64,000 nt of DNA, taken from positions 16,076,527 to 16,140,526 of the forward strand of contig OX485808.1 in assembly GCA_950295325.1 (NCBI GenBank). The letters are read 5' to 3'. The DNA is from Polytrichum commune (taxonomy: Eukaryota; Streptophyta; Polytrichopsida; Polytrichales; Polytrichaceae). The notes under the pieces are model-generated. The model searched no databases and was not told where the DNA came from. It saw only the letters and a program-made list of their open reading frames with translations. Of this stretch, positions 44,601 through 57,640 are shown piece by piece; the first letter of the stretch is position 1; every line of letters begins with the position of its first letter. The translations under genes and the position numbers were made by a program.

Positions 44601-44869
44601 GTTCACCCCAAGACAGTGCAATGGCGCTGAGGCGAAGCCCTGGTGCTTTCTAAGGAAGCTGCTGGAGGTTGGGGGAAGAAGACAAGAGTAGAAGCGGCGG
44701 CAACCCGTTGCTCCTCATGCCTCTTCCCCCTTCCACCCACCTCCTCAGACACCGAAAGGCCGCCTAAAGGAAAACCCACTTCACTAGTGCACTATAAGAT
44801 CCACACAGCCAACGCACACAACCATCTCGTTTTTGAAACTCCCACACGACAACAGAAGAAGACCCAACA

Positions 44870-45855: not shown

Positions 45856-46283
45856 ACCCAAACTGTTGCTGCCGGGAGGATACAGAGCTGAGGAGCCGAC
45901 AGACTACTGAAGACTATGAAGACTGCTGGAGACTAAGGAGCTGTGGAGAGGCCAAGACTCGGAGCAGCGAAGAACTTGGAGGAGTGGAGCTGAGAAGAAC
46001 TTGGAGGAGAGGAGCTGCGAAGGAGCATCGCCAAAGTTTGATTTGTGCGGCCCACCAGCTCGCCAACAGACCAGAAATCCAGGGTAGAAAAGAAGGTGCT
46101 GGGACATCAAGGAGATTGAAGGCGAAGTGTTGCTGCTAGAGCTGTTGCTGACTGTCGTTTTGCTGCCCTTCATCCGCTTGGTAAGTTTACACGTTAATTT
46201 GTTTTCTCATTATTTGCACATAGGCACACACATAGTCTTAGACACATCATAGCATTGATAGGTTTGTTAGGATAGTAAGCAAA

Positions 46284-46865
46284 ATGAAGGTTGCATATGC
46301 AACCTACCTTGTTATCATTATGTGGCTAGTACTAGCCACACCATACTGGATATACTCTCATAGTGTCAACTCTCACACCACATGGGAATGCCTTACAAAC
46401 TCTTGCTTTAAAAACACATATAAGAACGTCATAAATCCAAAGGTATGGTATAACAACCTTAATGTTCATATCATAAATGAATGGTCCATTAGAAATAATG
46501 GATCCGTGGTAGCAACGGTAGATGCTTGTGCTTTTAGTTATACTTGCCTCAAATGCTTAGGAGATGTATGGAATGTTAGAGTTGTGACAAATCATAATCT
46601 ACATAAGAGCACTTACAACCAATTTGTAAATACTAATATGAAGATTCATATGAATAGGAAAATGTGTTATCATAGGATGAATGCAAGTTGTACTCATACT
46701 AATACTCATATGATGTTAGAACATGCAAATCACTTCTTCTTTCACTCTCAATTCCTAGGAGGCCCACAACTTAATTTGTGGAAAGGAATTAGAGGAAAAA
46801 AAATAAGAAGTATACCTCATTCAAAACTAAAGTACAAAACGTTCGTTTGCTTTACTTATATCAGA
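46284..46865 (+). other. Open frame in phase with, and upstream of, LINE ORF1
   Basis: A 194-codon open stretch beginning MKVAYATYLVIIMWLVLATP continues in the same frame into ORF1. The start resembles a signal peptide or membrane segment. Composition is Asn/His/Thr-rich. It may be leader sequence open by chance or a real N-terminal extension of ORF1. No family is recognised. Confidence 0.3.
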
Positions 46866-48485
46866 ATGGCAACCATCACTCCAACCTCATCATCCCGTAA
46901 GTTGTTTGAAAATGAAAATATAGATTCTACAAGTGGAAAACGTCCAGTGCTTGCTGTGGTATTGTCAAGTCAAAAAAAGGTTAAAGGAATAGCACCCACT
47001 GAGAGAATACACCCCCCCTATTGGCTTGGTTTTCAAGCTATGAACACAATTGCAAAATTTGCCAACATGCCTCTCATTCAAACACCTTCTTTCACTGAGT
47101 TAGTCAAAAAATGTATGTGTGAGTCTGAAGCACATGAAATGGTGGAGTCATCTCCCTCCTTTCCGTTCGTTGCCCAAGAATAGTGGCCTTCCATACGAAC
47201 GGATGGTAAGGAGGGAATGCACTACAATCTCACCCATATTCCTTCAGATGTGGAAGTGGGTGACCATGGATTTGCTTTGGACTATCACATATCTATCCAT
47301 TTTGAAATTGAAAGAATAGAATTGGATAGAGATGTGATACTCAACTTAACAAAGGATAGACTAAAAACAAGGAGGATAGAGGTCGGGGAAGTCCTAGGAG
47401 AGCCCATAGCTGTCCTTTGTTTTCATGGGACCAAAAGATGGAGTGGAATTATTAAACTCCACCTTAAAAACCCTGAAATGGATGGATATGGCCTTCTCTG
47501 TGGATTGAGACCTTTCATCCTCAAGCTTGGCCAATTTACAAATGCTATAGGCAAAGTGTGTAAATCCTTTGATACCATTGCAATTGCATCCATGCTCTCC
47601 GTCAAAGTCACAACCCCGTCAATCAAGGGTAAAGAATGGTATGATTTGTTTGTAGAAATAGTTGGGGATGGATTTCGACGAGGCCTTGACTTTGAAATAA
47701 CGAATGTGCAAAAATCGGCGGATGCTGAGTTTGCTTGGATTAAAGCACCCTCTCCAGAGGAAGCCAAAAGAATTAAAGCACTCAAACTTTCGTTTTTCAA
47801 TGAAATAGTAGATGTAAACTTTGCAAGTAACGAAAAACTCTCAGAAGATGATAAAGCCCAAAAGAATGCACTCATTCTAATTGCCTGTAACCTCAATAAA
47901 GTAAAAACAACTATGCAAATCGAAGAAGGAATCCGAAAATGCATGGGAGAACTTATTGTTCTCGGTTTTTACTTTAGACTTGAGAACGGAAAGTATACGG
48001 GCTCATGCAATGTCCAATGCCTCAACTCTTTTGTCTACAAGAAATTTGTTAAGAAAAATGAAAAAATATTTGGTAAATATGTTGAATTTACCCCCCATCC
48101 AAAAAGTCTAGACGGGATAAATGCACCTAGTAAAGAAGAGCTAGTTAGACTTGGATTTTCAGACGTGAACACCGCACTTGCAAACACCATCCAAGCTCTG
48201 GAGAATGGACCGCACCAAAACATCACCAACAAAGATCTCAACAAGATGGTAGAAGTAGCGGTAAAAAAGGGGACGGATGAAATACGAAAGGAAATGGTGA
48301 ACCTTAAAGGTAAGATTGTGCAAGAGGCAAAGGTTTATGCCGACCATGTGCAAGCGGAGTCAAACAAGAATTCCAAGCTCCAAATACAACTCCTTCAAAG
48401 GCAAATGAAGATTACCTTGGATGCTATCGAACCGGCTCACCTGGACATATCAGAAATTGAAAACAATATGGACTTGACAAACTAA
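46866..48485 (+). pseudogene. LINE ORF1 protein with one in-frame stop
   Basis: From the ATG coding MATITPTSSSRKLF the frame is open to 48485 except for a TAG at 47181-47183 (FPFVAQE*WPSIRTDG). If that stop is one base change, the protein was about 539 aa. The middle shows two alpha/beta segments typical of RRM-type ORF1 proteins: AVLCFHGTKRWSGIIKLHL through FAWIKAPSPEEAKRI, and ALILIACNLNKVK through GSCNVQCLNSFVYKKF. The C-terminal third (MVEVAVKKGTDEIRKEMVN onward) is a predicted coiled coil. ORF1 proteins bind the element RNA and form multimers. Downstream ORF2 starts 118 nt after this stop. The part after the TAG is a long clean frame of 422 codons. Confidence 0.65.
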
Positions 48486-48718
48486 TTTCGACAAACATCC
48501 CGGCGGCGTACAATTATAAATGACTTATAGTATATTTATATACTAAAAAACATAATTAAATTATTAATATATACTAAAAATAAAACCCTACCTATAGTAT
48601 TTATGAATACTATAACATCAAAAATTCACAAAGAAAACCCCCCCAACACCTCACAAAAACAAATCTATTTACTCACAATACAACAATATCCTATCCAATA
48701 CAACAAAGTATACAATAC

Positions 48719-49045
48719 GGCCTCGGCCTACCGGCCTCGCCACAAAATAAAACTAACAAGATATATACACTACCACTCCCTCAACCCCATCATTAACACA
48801 ATCACAAAGCCTACCCACCAACATACTAAATCTATACACTACCTCCCAAAAACTACACAAAAAATAATAATTGCCTTACCTAATCTATTTACAAAAAGTA
48901 AATATAAACTACTCACCTTAAATAAACCTCACCTCAACATCAAACACCATCACAAACCCTATTTCAAACACCTATTAAACCCTCATTCAAAATACCAACC
49001 TCACCCAAAAGATACAATGGCCTCGGCCTACCGGCCTCGCCACAC
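48719..49045 (+). repeat. 300-bp duplication with GC-rich block in ORF2 N-terminus
   Basis: An identical 26-nt block beginning 'ggcctcggcctaccggcctc' occurs at 48719 and 49019, exactly 300 bp apart and in frame. It encodes ASAYRPRH twice. The following about 170 bp are also alike at protein level (IIIALPNLFTKSKYK against IIPAIPNFFTTTKFT). The GC-rich block stands out sharply from its AC-rich, AT-rich surroundings. Confidence 0.85.
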
Positions 49046-49292
49046 AAATAATAACACATACCACTTCATAAATAACTGGAGACCTAACTCAATAACAAGC
49101 CAAAAATCTATAAAAAATACAAACTCACACTTCTCACCCAAACAAATAGAAAACATCATACCCGCTATACCTAACTTCTTTACTACAACCAAGTTCACAA
49201 TCATAATATATCTAAAAATAAACATGAAAAATCCAAAAACACTCCATTCCCGTGGATACTACTTTATTAACAAACTAAAATTGCTAAAATGC

Positions 49293-49319
49293 GGGGACAT
49301 AGAACCCAACCCCGGACCA
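49293..49319 (+). other. 2A ribosome-skipping motif in LINE ORF2
   Basis: Codons read GDIEPNPGP followed by Met, the D(V/I)ExNPGP signature at which the ribosome skips the Gly-Pro bond. It sits at about residue 231 of the ORF2 frame, before the APE domain, and would release the N-terminal part as a separate protein. Confidence 0.88.
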
Positions 49320-52300
49320 ATGCCTAACATCCTACATACACACCCTGCTACACACAAAAAAAAAGCCAACATCTACTTCATTCCAAACACTATAAAACTA
49401 CAACCTGAATACCAACACATAGCAAACATATTTGCCCCCATACTAAAAAATACACACCCACTACATCCTCAAGCAATAACCACCTACCCGCATCTACATC
49501 AATATATCCAAACACAAAGGCAATCACCACTAACCCATATGCTATACGCTCTAATCATCACCATCCACCCCTCAATAGACACATGCAATAACATACTAGC
49601 CCAACCCCAAAATTACCACTTTAATAACATATGGACGAACACATTGATTATCAGACTGGCCAACCTCACTAACCCCCCCAAAAGGCATATATCAACACCT
49701 CACCCCAACACAACTTTTGTAGAAAACAATCAAGATATAATATACCCAAAAAATTTAATACACACAGAGATATATGATTTTATCCACAACCAAGATACTA
49801 CACCAACACCAATCACCCTTCAAAATAAATTTCCCTTCCTCCCAAATCAATTGATCACCGAAGCACTCCGATGCCTAGAAAGCATCAACGAATATTCACA
49901 CCCACCCCCACCCCCAGCTACACCTACACCAACCCCAACAATTAACACCGACACCGAGCACGAAACAAACATAATAACATGGAATACGTCATCACTCAAC
50001 ACATCATTACCAAACCTACAAAGCCTAATAAACAACTCGCTAAACAACACAACAATCATACATATTCAAGAAACCAAACTAACTGCAAATAAATCTACAA
50101 AATACATACAAAACCTATTTCCGAAATTTAAACTCATTTTCAACAACACACATGCACTCACAAGATGCATACAACAAAGAATGCCTTATACTCCAGGAAG
50201 AGGAGGCTTACTCACACTTATCCACAAGAAATATGCATTCCCTGGGAATATCACCAAAAATTCCTACGCCAATAAATATATCCCCATACCTACAAATAAT
50301 TAAAATAAACAACCATCCACTAATACCTTGGCTAATCATACACATGTACATGCCTACACACTTAGAAGACACATGCCTCATTCTACACCTTAAGAACGAA
50401 ATCACTAACGAAATCACTATACACCCCAATCACATGTATACATTATGTAGGGACTTTAACCGAGATATCGCACTTAGAGGCAGACAAAATAACAACATTA
50501 ACACCCCTCCACAAAAAGAACATTACCAATGGAAAATTTTCACCGCATTATTCAACCTAGAATATATCCCAACTAACACTAGCATCTCCAGACAAGAAAA
50601 CTATAATTACACATCAACAAGTCTAATAGATGGATTCTACATTCACTTACCAAACAACAGCAAATTCATTTATACCACAAACACAAACATGAATCTAAAT
50701 TCAGACCATTATCTAGTTGTACTACATATCCTCCACAACATCCTTATAGCCAGATCCCCACCCCCCACAAACACGTCACCAACTAGAATACTAAACCCAA
50801 TACCACCAGAAAACATCGAAAAATTCAACATAACATTCATCGAAGAAAACTCTGCACAAATAAAAGCCCTTACCACCCTACTCGAAAACCACCAACACTT
50901 AAGCCCGGATCAATGGGCGGAAGCCTGTACAACATTCGACCACATTGTATACAAAATTTTAGAAACAATTGAAGAAACTTGTAAAGCAGACCCACTACCC
51001 AACCTTACGAATAGAACATCACAACAAGGTGGGTTTTGCCACGCAAACTTGCGAGAAAATGGAAAAAACACCTTAACACATATCACCTCATTAGGAAAAC
51101 CATATATATTGCACAACACGATCCACTCTGGCAAGCACACCCCATCCTAAACGATATACGAAACCACCAACACACAAACATCCCACACCCACCTGTTACA
51201 ACGGCACCTCCTACTGAATGGATTGATGCCATAGCAACCATCGCAAAAAATACAAATAAAGAAGCCAGGAAAATCACCACAAAATACACCAAAGACTGCA
51301 TTCTAAAGGCCGTATCAAAATACCGTCAAATGTATGAAAAAAACCCCAAAAAGATAAATCGAAAAGTCTTCAAAAACACTGAAACCTCACCCCTGGACTC
51401 CATCATTGATAGACAAAATAATATATTAACTAACCCAGAAGACATCGCAGCAGAAATATACACGCAACAATCCATCAGTAACCGTCCTACAGTTCCCACA
51501 TGTCAATATCAAAATACACACCCACTACACTGCACATGTGGAGTCCGGCAATATCCATGGCATGACTTAGACGGATACATCATTGATAAACGAGGAGAAC
51601 CCCAAATCCCCCTACACACGTATTTTGACCAAGAAATATACGACTTTTGTCTTAAAAACCTAAATAATAACAAAGCCCCAGGCCCAGACAAAATACCCAA
51701 TTCAATTCTAAAAAACATGCCCCCACGATTCCATAAATTACTCTTCTTATTTTTTAAACATTGTTATAAACAAAAACAAATCCCTGCATCATGGAAAACC
51801 AGTCTGACAATTTTACTATACAAAAAAAGTAACCCATCACAACTAACAAACCATAGACCTATTGCACTAGCTAACACCATATATAAATTCTACTCGAGTA
51901 CATTAACTTCTATCCTATCAGCGTATGGAGAAAAATACCAAATATTACACGATAGTCAAGAAGGGTTTAGAGCAGAGAGAAGCACTTCTAGACAAATCCA
52001 ATTATTAATCGCAGCACTTGAAGACGCAAGATTCACGAACCAAGATATATATATCCTTTACATTGACTTTAAAAACGCCTTCGGCTCCATTGATCACGCC
52101 AGACTTTTAGCCATAATGAAAGATCTGGGATATCCCACTGACTCCATAAATCTCATAGGAAACATATATTCACAATCCTCAACAATATTCAATGGTGAAC
52201 ACTTCGGTAAACCTTACCAATCCCCATTCAAAGAGGTACAATACAAGGTGATACCCTTAGCCCATATCTATTTATCATATTCCTAGAACCCCTCCTCAGA

Positions 52301-54199
52301 TGGCTACAACAAGGGAATAATGGATACACTTTTGGTATATCTAAAATTAAAATCTCATCAGCAGCATATGCAAATGACCTAGCAGCAATCACCAATAAAC
52401 TAGAGACACTACAAATACAACTCAACAAACTAGACAAATTCTGCGAATGGGCAGGAATGGATCTTAAAATACCCAAGTGCGCAATAACTGGATGCCCAAA
52501 CAAATCCAAACTTCACCCCACAACCTTTAAAGCCCTAATCCAATCTACCAATATCAACTACAGAAACCAACCTATACCAGTCTTAAACCAACATGAACCA
52601 TACACGTATCTAGGAATAAATCTTGCACCGTCATTCAAATGGAAAACACAAATAAATACCACTACAGCTAAAGTAATAAAACAGTGTCAAGCCCTTGTAA
52701 CATGCCCAGCTACTATGAAACAAAAAATAAACATGGCAGATACAGTCATACGTGCTGGAATAGCATACAGCTTCTACGCAGTGTCATACTCCATACCAGC
52801 TATCAAAAAACTCGATAAAAAATCATAGCACTTCACAAAACGATATGCGGAATACCCAAATACACATCTAACATCGCTACACAACTCCCACACAATCTAT
52901 TCAGAATCGAAGCATTCTCACTACAAAATGTCTATTTAAGATGCATTGGAGAACAACTACAAAACGCCCTCAATGATAAAGGTAGAATTGGGAAAATATA
53001 TGTTGGTCTACTTCAATTCATACTCGCCAAATATGGGGGCTCTAAGGAAATCACCCGCATTAAATACCACCAATGTGTTACATCACCCATCACTAGAACA
53101 TTATTCTTGCTCAAACATAAAGCCGGAGTCCACCTAAAAGGTACAATAAACAATTTCCTACTAACCCCATCCCCACTTGAAACTGCATGGATGCAGGAAG
53201 CACAAATGCTTCATGGCCTAAATCCCAACACCTCACTTAAATTACTACACAAACTACTTGTACATAATATAATCACACTAGACCAAATTACCATGCCTAA
53301 TGGTACCACTCTAATGAACCCAGACGAATTTAAAATCTACCACTCCACTCCTTCTAAACTTATCAAAAGCGCACTTAACATAGCTAATCAATTATTTTGC
53401 CACCCCCCCTTGTAGTCAATGCCCCCTACCATGCCAACAACACCATCCACCAAGATCCCTAAAAAATAAATATATAATAAGACACCACAATATCCTACCA
53501 TACCCACCAACCGCCCCCGTACACCCCCCTAACATCCCCATTCCCCCTCTACCCCCTCCTCCCAACAACATGCTTAAAGACCCCCGACAATTCCCCATAC
53601 ACAAAATAATCGATCATAAACAAAAACAATCCAATGACCATAACGGAATAAAAAGAACAGTCACGTCGTACTTATGTCAATGGACTACAACAAATAACAA
53701 CACATATAACAAATGGCGAACTCAAAGGGACTTATACCCCTATTGTGAAGCCAACACATGTAATCACAACACAGACCTACTTATCCATTACTACAAAGAA
53801 AGACAACACAAACATTTTTCAAACATAATTAATGCCTACTTCTCCACAGAACAATATAGAGACACAAGATACGTCACACCAACCACAATAATTCCACTAG
53901 CACACATCTCTATTAATGAATGCAACCCAGAAAACGACATCGAAACAAACTCTGATACCATCCAAACACAATTCGATGTCGCTCACATATACGAAGACAA
54001 TGGCTGACACCTCATTACCATCCCGAAAGCTAGACTAACATGGCTATGGAAACAATACCAATTGGCAAAAAACAACACACACGGTTTAGAACCATCTACC
54101 CAATCGTTCGAAACTGAAATTGTTTGGTTATACCAAAGGTACAAATACCATATCCCAAAAAATGACCCACTCAAACGAGCCCAATATACAATACCAACC

Positions 54200-54600
54200 C
54201 AAATATTAGATCTCCTTATTACAACATTCAATATTAATCACTCATATTTTTCATCCCCAGTTACATGCCCCATACAATTCACCCAATTCTACTCACCATT
54301 CTCGCGAGACATAATATTTGGATCCCTAGGTAAAGCGTTTGACCATAAATGGCAAAGAATCGGTTACGCACACCCTCATAATACAACAGACCTACAACAA
54401 GCTATTCACTGGGCGCGCATAGTGGCCCAAAATGATCCATATACAATCCCTATACTTATATCTCCGGATACTAATTGGTACCAAAACTCCAACCCACACA
54501 CAGGCCCATTCCCAGACACACACGTCATTGCCCATTTCGCCGCTGATACGATCACGTATGAGGAACCCACAATACCCTCCGAGCTCAATATCACAAGAAA
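54200..54600 (+). other. Possible adenine-methyltransferase-like domain in LINE ORF2
   Basis: Between RT and RNase H the frame encodes YFSSPVTCPIQFTQFYSPF, FGSLGKAFDHKW, GYAHPHNTTDLQQAIHWAR and IPILISPDTNWYQ. The spacing recalls phage Dam-like or PCIF1-type N6-adenine methyltransferases: an Sxx-C..F pattern, then an NPPF/NPPY motif, a helix with W.KA, and a strand followed by a D.xWY/F motif. The catalytic NPPF/Y would map to AHPH, so if related it is inactive. This is an inference from motif order only. Confidence 0.35.
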
Positions 54601-55666
54601 AGAACCATCTACCATGCAAATATTTTGTATCCATCACCAAAACAATAACATAGGCACCTACGAACAAATGAAATTAATAAGCGACACAGCAAATAACCTC
54701 CAAATATTACAAAGTCACACACAAACTGCACCACCCACCCCTCCAAACATCACCGTTAACCCTAGCAAAAAATGGGCTAAATCAAACTACCCAAACACAC
54801 CCCTACACAATAATATCCCCACCCCACAACTTCCAAACTACCAAACTAACTTACCGCTAAAATTCCACCCCCAATTTAACTACTATACAGACGGATCCTT
54901 TATAAAACCCAAAGAAATTGCCCCTGGGGTATGGAGAAGAGAAAGAGCTGGATACGGTATCTATAGCCCCAAAGGCTTAAATATCGCCAAAAGACTCCAT
55001 GGGCATCAAAACATACTACGTACAGAAATGATGGCTATACACAAAACACTAAGAATCATCAATACAAAATTCCCTAATGAACCCGCATTCATATTCACAG
55101 ACAGTCTAAACGTATTATACCTACTCAACACATAAAGTAAACACCCCACTCTCCATAATAGTCACCCCGACCAAACCACACTCAACTCCATGGTAAAAAT
55201 CCTCCAAGACCGTACACAGCCAATCACAATATACAAAGTCAGAGCACACGTCAACATTGACGGTAATGAAAAAGCGGATAAACTAAAAAAAAACGGGTTA
55301 GAATTAGAACACAGAATTGCCATCCACCCATACGAACATGCCCACGCCATCCCGTACTATTACCAAAAGGACGTCTGGGCCTCGATGGCAGACGTCCCAG
55401 ACAAAGGCCCAATAAGATTCTTAGAAAAACAAATTAAAAAATATGATACGGAAACCAATATAGCAATCATGACCACACAAACCCCCAACACGTGTAAATG
55501 GACAGAAAATATAGACATTGACAAAGAACTGTCCAACGAATTCTGGACAAATCCCTTAATCACAAACAAACAAAAATCCTGCCTTATTAAATTCCGCACA
55601 GGAACATACATGGGTAATGCTAGAAAACAAATGTTCTTCGGTCACCAGAGGTACCCCTCTATCACA

Positions 55667-56180
55667 TGCCCTATATGCAATTCAAACGATCCAGACACTT
55701 GGCTACATGTTCTACTGAAATGCAACCAACAACATATACACTCACTACGAATTAAAAGACATAACAAAGCAGTCGGAGAAATTAGGAAGCTTCTAATCTC
55801 GTCCGAAAAATCCCAATGTTTTACTCTCATGAATGCCGGTACCTTCAATAATAAACCCCAAGAAAATACAGTCCCCAATTGGCTACTCCCCTGCACATGT
55901 AACACACAAAGATGTCATTGCAACGCAAGATTTCGACCTAATATACTCTGTGTTAAAGGATTACCATATCAAAATGACCCTCCCATTGACATTGACCCTA
56001 ACCTCACCATACAATTTATTGAATTCACATATTCTAACGACAGATTTTCCCCAGAAACAATAGAAGCAAAAAACAACAAATACAAACCTTTGATTGATAA
56101 TATCGCTTCCAGAGGATGGAAAATCGAACCACTTATTGTCATCACAACTGGGGCCCGAGCTACGGCCCACATCCCATCTA
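55667..56180 (+). other. CCHC motif and possible restriction-like endonuclease at ORF2 C-terminus
   Basis: A C-x2-C-x11-H-x4-C motif (CPICNSNDPDTWLHVLLKC, 55667-55723) is followed about 200 bp later by RFRPNILC (55928) and then IQFIEFTYSND (56009-56038). Next come KKY-like basic residues, a RGWKIEPLIVITTGARAT strand-turn and HIPSMKIL. This is the order of the R2-type restriction-like endonuclease (PD...D/E...K). The expected PD is PN here, so catalysis is probably lost. Confidence 0.55.
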
Positions 56181-56341
56181 TGAAAATACTAGAAGAAAAT
56201 CTCAAAATACCCCTGGTTACCATCAAAAATACCTTTAAAAACATTAATACCATTGCAATACAATATGCCATGTCCATCCTCCTCCATAAGAGGAGAATTG
56301 AAAACCACCAACCGCTCCCCCAAAACTTAGACCCTCCATAA

Positions 56342-57640
56342 AACCCAAAAAACTTATATAATATTTAGTATCTATTTACAGCTCAGAATGAGGGATTGGT
56401 GCCGGTATTGTTGGTATTTCAACTCATCTTTATTGTTAGGTTGCACTTGTAATTTCAATCGGTGATAGATAAGAAGGTCAGTTATTGGGTTGTCTGCTAG
56501 GACGTTTTAAGTTATCAAATTTTGGTTATCATTATTGCTCATCTTTGATTTTCCAATAATGCACATTTTCAATCGAGGATAGTTGCAAAATACAATTGGA
56601 TGAAATTTTTGAACTTTCTAAGAGATTCTTTATTCAACATTAAATATGGGCACTACAAAGACTCGGGATCACCAACACTTGTGTCTATAAGCTACTCTAA
56701 ACATTGTATTTAGTGTCACCGATTTTGTTTGTCTTGCTCAATATTAATCGTAAACCGCATGTGTAGTGTCACCAACACTAAATGTGTCATTCCTTGTAAA
56801 AACATTCGGGCATTAGATATTTACATCATTTGCAATTAGTATCACTTCCTAAGCGGTTTTTCATTACATGATTATTAGGATGCAGAGTATACCAAATTCT
56901 GTCTCAATAATTGGCATTTGGATGAGCTTATTTGTAAACTTGTTAATAAGAAGTGTCAATTAGACAAGTTACCACGGTGGCATAAAATACCATATGACAC
57001 TAAATATAACATTTAGTGTAGTTGGTAGCTACCAACTAGTAGTAATGGGGCTAGAGAGTTGCTACTAATACACAATTACATTGTGTGGGCCCGGTTACTA
57101 TTCATACGTTTAGGATGATACTTGGCAATTTGGGTGAAGTTATACTTATGGCACTACTCACAAGAAGCATTGTTCATCCCAACATTCTTCATTTGAAAAT
57201 ACTATTCATATCAACACTATTCACTGACAATACTGGCACTATTCACAATACTCGTATTTTTTATATGTATCAACACCTCTCGCTATTCGTACCGGCATCA
57301 ATTTCTTCCTATTATCTAAGTTTCTTCCCATGAAGGTGAGACAATGGAAGCATGTTAGATGCTAAATATAGAAACGGAACTCAACCATAGAATTGAATAA
57401 TGTTACGTTATCCCGCCGCCAAATAGACTAGATAATCTTTTATATCTTTGGGGAGTTTGGCAACTTGGACATGGCCGCTCATCTCGAGTTAAAGTCCACC
57501 AAAGCTTCAGCACACCCCCGCCATAATTAGAGAGCAATCGATAAGACATCGGCCCCTATCATTTGAAACATAATAAAGTAGGATATTGGAGTATCTAAAA
57601 CTACAGTAATTTCTTGATGGGCCAATGTAACAAAACTTTA
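56342..57640. other. Non-genic stretch right of the LINE
   Basis: It contains one inverted MITE-like copy (56692-57021). The remainder has no supported gene. Confidence 0.55.
56692..57021 (-). mobile_element. MITE-like family B, copy 3 (inverted)
   Basis: About 330 bp. Its right end, 'cactaaatataacatttagtgtag', is the inverse of the family start. The internal 'cgtaaaccgcatgtgtagtgtcaccaacac' matches the reverse complement of the other copies. The middle differs, so it may be a subfamily or a partly replaced copy. Confidence 0.6.

Follow-up and report, generated by a model that had tools for sequence, protein, structure and literature searches.

A PCIF1-like domain in a probable Dualen/RandI-type dual-nuclease non-LTR retrotransposon of the moss Polytrichum commune

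Long interspersed nuclear elements (LINEs) of the Dualen/RandI kind combine an APE-type endonuclease, a reverse transcriptase (RT), an RNase H and a nuclease of the PD-(D/E)XK type in one element (PMC3636483; PMC4640811), and carry 3′ repeats other than A (PMC3747384). LINEs with two nucleases have been interpreted as survivors of the transition in which restriction-like nucleases gave way to those of the APE type (PMC4640811). Dualen/RandI elements are reported from green algae (PMC4438587; PMC8226300), the first of these sources naming green algae only, as well as from cryptophytes (PMC12747079), and a listing of plant LINEs holds L1 and RTE only (PMC9033089). The element described here lies in a 64,000-nucleotide stretch of the genome of the moss Polytrichum commune (contig OX485808.1, positions 16,076,527 to 16,140,526), hereafter the window, and is a damaged member of a large family of non-long terminal repeat (non-LTR) retrotransposons. 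It is likely that it represents a dual-nuclease family of the Dualen/RandI kind that has been active recently in a land plant. No report of a land-plant Dualen/RandI element was found among the literature listed, a search outside which Repbase, subscription papers, supplements and preprints lay, and a prior description elsewhere is possible.

The genome searched comprises 408 Mb in 64 contigs, seven of which are 42–78 Mb long. A search with the RT gave 99 scored matches of 1977 candidates, with identities of 77–100%, and a 130-base query from the 3′ untranslated region (3′ UTR) gave 40 scored matches of 1637 candidates at 99–100% identity. Near-identical copies, 99.4–99.7% alike, are present and the family has therefore been active recently. 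Among viral contigs 181 pattern matches were obtained, none of which was confirmed as a relative. Twelve loci (L017–L026, L031, and L032), selected partly in favour of long open frames, were read across the second open reading frame (ORF2). Intact copies, for which the sequence-only reading of the window had proposed to search the host genome, do exist at this level, ORF2 being uninterrupted in six of the twelve (L017, L018, L019, L020, L021, and L023). In these six, APE, RT, RNase H and the restriction-like endonuclease (RLE) share one uninterrupted frame, and a nested insertion of one LINE inside another is therefore ruled out. In the window ORF2 (49224–56341, plus strand as all features given here) is broken. 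It aligns with the L018 ORF2 (2372 amino acids, counted from the ATG before a 2A-like peptide) in six tblastn segments at 79–96% identity, has in-frame stops at 54005–54007 and 55133–55135, and differs from 12/12 other loci in three motifs, with RDFN for GDFN, YAND for YADD, and RPN for (R/K)PD. The broken frame, the stops and the altered motifs rule out the window copy as a functional element.

The APE-type endonuclease (49959–50750) is recognised by Pfam as well as by motifs. In an alignment of four loci, Pfam families of APE matched all four APE segments at E ≤ 1 and exceeded the cut-off in two of them, and the motifs QETK, YMP, GDFN, LIDG, and SDH are found in 12/12 other loci. At the opposite end of ORF2, a CCHC zinc knuckle of the RLE linker, CX2CX9HX4C (55667–55723; present in 12/12 other loci), is followed by the putative RLE (55724–56280) with RH, RPN at 55934–55942 (PD elsewhere), FIEFTY, and KX2KY at 56069–56083. 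The published hallmarks of this type of nuclease are a CX2-3CX7-8HX4C knuckle, RH, PD, D/E, and KX2KY, the first K of which is the catalytic lysine (PMC5678591). In the moss family CCHC, RH, PD, FIEFT, and KX2KY occur in this order in all twelve other loci. The pattern of CCHC, RH, PD, D/E, and KX2KY, in which the CCHC spacing was widened to x7–9 to fit, never arose when the L018 domain was shuffled 200,000 times, and the PD-E-KX2KY part alone arose in 208 of 100,000 shuffles.

Both nucleases are under purifying selection. The ratio of nonsynonymous to synonymous substitutions (dN/dS; Nei–Gojobori; L017, L018, L023, L031, and L032, with pairs of infinite dS excluded) ranges over 0.06–0.13 for APE, 0.04–0.08 for RT, 0.08–0.19 for the PCIF1-like domain that lies between RT and RNase H, 0.05–0.15 for RNase H, and 0.07–0.13 for CCHC-RLE, as compared with 0.25–0.40 in the linker that joins the PCIF1-like domain to RNase H. 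In the least saturated pair, L017–L018 (dS 0.40–0.82), the corresponding values are 0.06, 0.07, 0.10, 0.05, and 0.09, with 0.28 for the linker, so that the order of the domains is unchanged. The low dN/dS of APE and RLE implies that both nucleases are kept by selection and not by inertia. The sequence-only reading, which had placed APE motifs before the RT and a CCHC with a PD-(D/E)xK-like block at the C-terminus of ORF2, is thereby borne out: the motifs that it quoted are present in the sequence, and ORF2 holds an APE identified by Pfam and motifs together with an RLE whose identity would rest on motif order, conservation and selection.

The RT (51624–52815; RVT_1) has YAND in the window and YADD in 12/12 other loci, and the RNase H (54872–55300), which contains the second of the two stops, has its residues kept in 12/12 other loci and matches PF00075 at E = 7.3e-13 in L018 and 1.4e-14 in L023. 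RVT_1, RNase_H, and PCIF1_WW exceed the Pfam cut-off in both of these loci. When compared with solved structures, the RT gave its best match to R2 proteins (105.6 bits), and LINE-1 was absent from its eight matches at E ≤ 1; an L1 from the same genome, used as a control, scored 171 bits with LINE-1 ORF2p and 74 bits with R2. In an RT tree of 10 rows (midpoint root, one long R2 row), four element rows were split from three L1 rows of this genome at 100/100 each, and three R2 rows grouped at 90/95. As Dualen, I, Jockey, CR1 and CRE are not represented in the tree, it separates the element from L1 and R2 without assigning it to Dualen. A grouping of the RT with L1, which the sequence-only reading had named as the outcome that would speak against it, was not seen, and L1 membership is ruled out by the structure scores, the control and the tree.

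The element shares two ORFs, APE and RT with plant L1, which is also present in this genome, but differs from it in the separation of the RT at 100/100, in the possession of an RLE, and in its 3′ end, a structured 3′ UTR with (TATC)n where L1 has (A)n. With the R2 group it shares the nearest solved RT relatives and a CCHC-RH-PD-E-KX2KY C-terminus; on the other hand, R2 elements are characterised by a single ORF with RLE and no APE, whereas the moss element has an APE, an RNase H and an ORF1, and the two insertion sites that were read differ in target sequence. With Dualen/RandI the element shares an APE N-terminal to the RT, an RNase H, and, by motifs, conservation and selection, an RLE C-terminal in the same ORF; the non-A 3′ repeats are a further likeness. 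The differences are the land-plant host, the lack of a detected cysteine protease, and, compared with algal Dualen/RandI by description only, the addition of the PCIF1-like domain, a 2A-like leader and a separate ORF1. The proposal that the element belongs to Dualen/RandI is supported in part, in that APE, RLE (at motif level) and RNase H occur in one ORF with an RT that is not L1.

It is unlikely that the family forms a separate clade that has both nucleases and does not belong to the Dualen lineage. The PCIF1-like domain, the 2A-like peptide, the large ORF1, the failure to find a protease, and an RT that forms its own 100/100 branch would all suit such a clade, but an RT nearest to R2 fits a lineage placed where RLE elements gave way to APE elements (PMC4640811), and the non-A tail is as in green-algal RandI (PMC3747384). 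The family could also have entered the plant by horizontal transfer from an alga and not by descent, and the literature does place Dualen in green algae and cryptophytes. This is unlikely, as the subfamilies differ within one genome, with 59–70% protein identity in the PCIF1-like domain and ORF1 identities down to 46% among the scored matches; such divergence suggests a long stay, the comparison being one within a single plant genome.

Several observations weigh against a Dualen/RandI-type element with two nucleases. First, the CCHC spacing of x9 differs from the published x7–8, and GXW, which is placed beyond the fourth strand (PMC5678591), is absent from the L018 segment. Second, an RLE profile gave nothing at E ≤ 10 among solved structures, and a single-sequence AlphaFold model of the RLE had a mean confidence (pLDDT) of 34.0 and did not confirm the fold; a second single-sequence structure model reached 35.7. 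Third, synonymous divergence between subfamilies is saturated in most comparisons, with dS above 1. Fourth, target duplications, which are present in both of the 5′-truncated young copies examined (11 bp in L021 and 13 bp in L022), were not found at L018 and L019, where the longest shared words were 5 and 4 bases and the 5′ ends are not well defined. Fifth, the likeness to Dualen/RandI rests on published descriptions and not on sequence comparison. The 2005 description of Dualen reportedly includes a cysteine protease as part of the Chlamydomonas element, and no such Pfam family was found at E ≤ 1 in L018 or L023. The first two of these points are also those that would speak for an APE-only LINE outside L1, the zinc-binding tail of which resembles an RLE by chance, and APE-only LINEs likewise end in a CCHC knuckle (PMC5678591). 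Against this, RH, PD, E, and KX2KY are found in order in all twelve other loci, the shuffles never gave the full pattern, and the CCHC-RLE segment has the low dN/dS given above, so that a chance resemblance is judged unlikely.

Between RT and RNase H lies the PCIF1-like domain (54008–54617), which matches PF12237 at E = 9.4e-12 in the window and is also matched in L018 and L023. In the genome all 150 scored matches to this family (697 candidates) were over the cut-off. A four-row profile gave only two matches at E ≤ 10 in the PDB, both of them PCIF1 proteins (E = 0.009 and 0.051, weak when taken alone), and between the element and PCIF1, SSPVTC and FGS.G align with ASPLNC and FGS.G. The constraint on the domain (dN/dS 0.08–0.19) is close to that on the enzyme domains. 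PCIF1, or CAPAM, is a methyltransferase that forms N6,2′-O-dimethyladenosine (m6Am) at the mRNA cap, and joint changes of Asn553 and Phe556 are used for its inactivation (PMC10544176). In Drosophila, PCIF1 has H in place of the F of NPPF; this protein is reported to be catalytically dead and makes no m6Am, yet it still binds phosphorylated Pol II (PMC9479742; PMC9916840). In the window AHPHN at 54368–54382 is aligned to ANPPF of PCIF1, and the variants among element copies are AHPHN, AHPPN or similar. The position of the catalytic Asn is His in 58/58 loci (57 distinct places, L012 lying inside L023), that of Phe556 is mostly Asn or Thr in the motif survey, and unlike in PCIF1 the NPPF motif is missing from all 58 loci. 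Furthermore, the domain is located inside a retrotransposon protein, and no WW domain was found by Pfam in L018 or L023. The best PF12237 score in the genome, 55.6 bits, belongs to an element copy; a better-scoring cellular PCIF1 gene was not seen in the genome scan, which an intron-split gene could escape.

As the domain is conserved without the catalytic Asn, it is more likely to bind RNA or the cap than to methylate, and is probably a non-catalytic binding module. A novel kind of active methyltransferase, marking the RNA of the element itself, would account for how strongly the altered motif and the residues around it are conserved but is highly improbable, given the change of Asn553 to His and of Phe556 to mostly Asn or Thr (PMC10544176) and the reported inactivity of the Drosophila protein, in which NPPF has H for F (PMC9479742; PMC9916840). 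A PCIF1-like domain is, as far as the searches show, novel as a passenger of a LINE; literature joining PCIF1 and a retrotransposon protein was not found, the search having the limits given above (Repbase, subscription papers, supplements and preprints lay outside it). It is tempting to speculate, and must be considered tentative, that a land-plant lineage of dual-nuclease LINEs captured the PCIF1 core, which, under strong constraint but without its catalytic Asn, was retained to read capped RNA. The element would then possess its own recognition module for the 7-methylguanosine (m7G) cap, which could secure the 5′ end of the element's full-length RNA until the cDNA is complete or favour the translation of the element, with both ancestral endonucleases still in use.

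Upstream of ORF2 lies ORF1 (46866–48485), with its ATG at 46866, a stop at 48483–48485 and, in the window copy, a premature stop at 47181–47183. A genome search with ORF1 gave 97 scored matches of 777 candidates and uninterrupted frames of 747 amino acids, and no Pfam family exceeded the cut-off in it. At least 56 of the 97 matches have an RT or PCIF1 match on the same strand 0.5–11 kb downstream, a lower bound as 40 of the 99 RT and 29 of the 150 PCIF1 places were used for the count, and ORF1 is therefore part of the element. The element thus starts at or before ~46,081, and it aligns with other copies from ~46081 to ~56416; the interval 48603–56341 given by the sequence-only reading covers most of ORF2 but is too short. 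The ORF1 of L017 and L021 is much longer and has 31% identity to that of the window over 347 amino acids (E = 3e-48), while their ORF2 is 87.5% identical to the L018 ORF2 in DNA. Likewise, when L029 and L030 are compared with L027 and L028, two ORF1 types with 31% identity precede ORF2s that are 87.5% alike. Either the two ORFs have moved between lineages as modules, or they evolve at very different rates. Over ORF2 (48001–56000) the GC skew is −0.37 to −0.48 and the AT skew +0.27 to +0.33, and both are near zero over ORF1.

The part of the 5′ UTR that aligns with other copies (46081–46865) has 97.7–97.9% identity to L027 and L028, from 46081 and 46093, respectively, and the start of the element may lie further upstream. 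A block at ~44631–44759 (63–132 bp, 74–77% identity) is common to the window, L027 and L028. Between 44631 and 46080, upstream of ORF1, nearly all sequence differs between copies that are 97–98% identical from 46081 onwards, which could reflect either a hypervariable 5′ UTR or 5′ exchange. The spacer between ORF1 and ORF2 (48486–49223) contains a 25-base motif, GCCTCGGCCTACCGGCCTCGCCACA, twice, at 48720–48745 and 49020–49046, ~300 bp apart. Near the N-terminus of ORF2 lies a 2A-like peptide, YYFINKLKLLKCGDIEPNPGP (49257–49319). NPGP is found in 11/12 other loci and L024 has NLGP; the full DIExNPGP is found in 7/12, with E replaced by K in three and by H in one. These replacements, in L017, L021, L022 and L032, extend over whole subfamilies. 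N-terminal 2A sequences recode translation, also in plant cells, and are known from non-LTR elements (PMC4981915).

At the other end, the 3′ UTR begins at 56342, and the window keeps it to 56416, without the structured end and the (TATC)n tail in which other copies terminate. Ten loci (8 unique rows) served to predict the structure, and in the same rows 315 of 320 cells of its 40 pairs are paired, with a two-sided change in 5 pairs. The alignment included 10 of the 12 loci; L024 and L032 were left out because their ends could not be aligned with the window, and the core is visible in both, with a pattern match in L032 only. A tRNA, suspected from a GGTTCGATTCCCG-like stretch, was not found by ARAGORN in 11 loci or in 10 end pieces. 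Rfam gave no match at E ≤ 1 in six loci, and only four weak matches, far below the gathering scores, in the window between 43500 and 57500.

It is conceivable that transposition proceeds as follows. A two-ORF RNA would be made and coated by the ORF1 protein, and ORF2 would be translated with a 2A-like leader able to free the main protein. The ORF2 protein would, as conservation suggests, recognise the structured 3′ UTR with its (TATC)n end. The target would be nicked by one of the two nucleases, most probably the APE, and the RT would prime on the nick; 5′-truncated copies that have target duplications of 11 and 13 bp show the outcome. Next, RNase H would remove the template and the R2-type nuclease would cut the second strand. 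The PCIF1-like domain, without the catalytic Asn, would more likely bind RNA, perhaps the m7G cap, than methylate it.

The genes of the window include a plant phi-type glutathione transferase. A light-harvesting protein of the genome matched 9vfj best (a 620-residue chain), followed by the Physcomitrium structures 7xqp and 8htu, and entries from seed plants and algae ranked below these, in line with a moss host. Elsewhere in the genome, a stretch of ~95 kb at C5:1.75–1.85 Mb holds fourteen genes for chlorophyll a/b-binding proteins, the domain scores of which are identical; they form a recent tandem array.

A land-plant member would widen the known range of dual-nuclease elements beyond that described (PMC4438587; PMC9033089). 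With a young family, uninterrupted copies and selection on both nucleases in a sequenced plant, it would become possible to ask directly which nuclease makes which cut. Finally, the altered but conserved PCIF1-like core suggests that a retrotransposon may make use of the mRNA cap.

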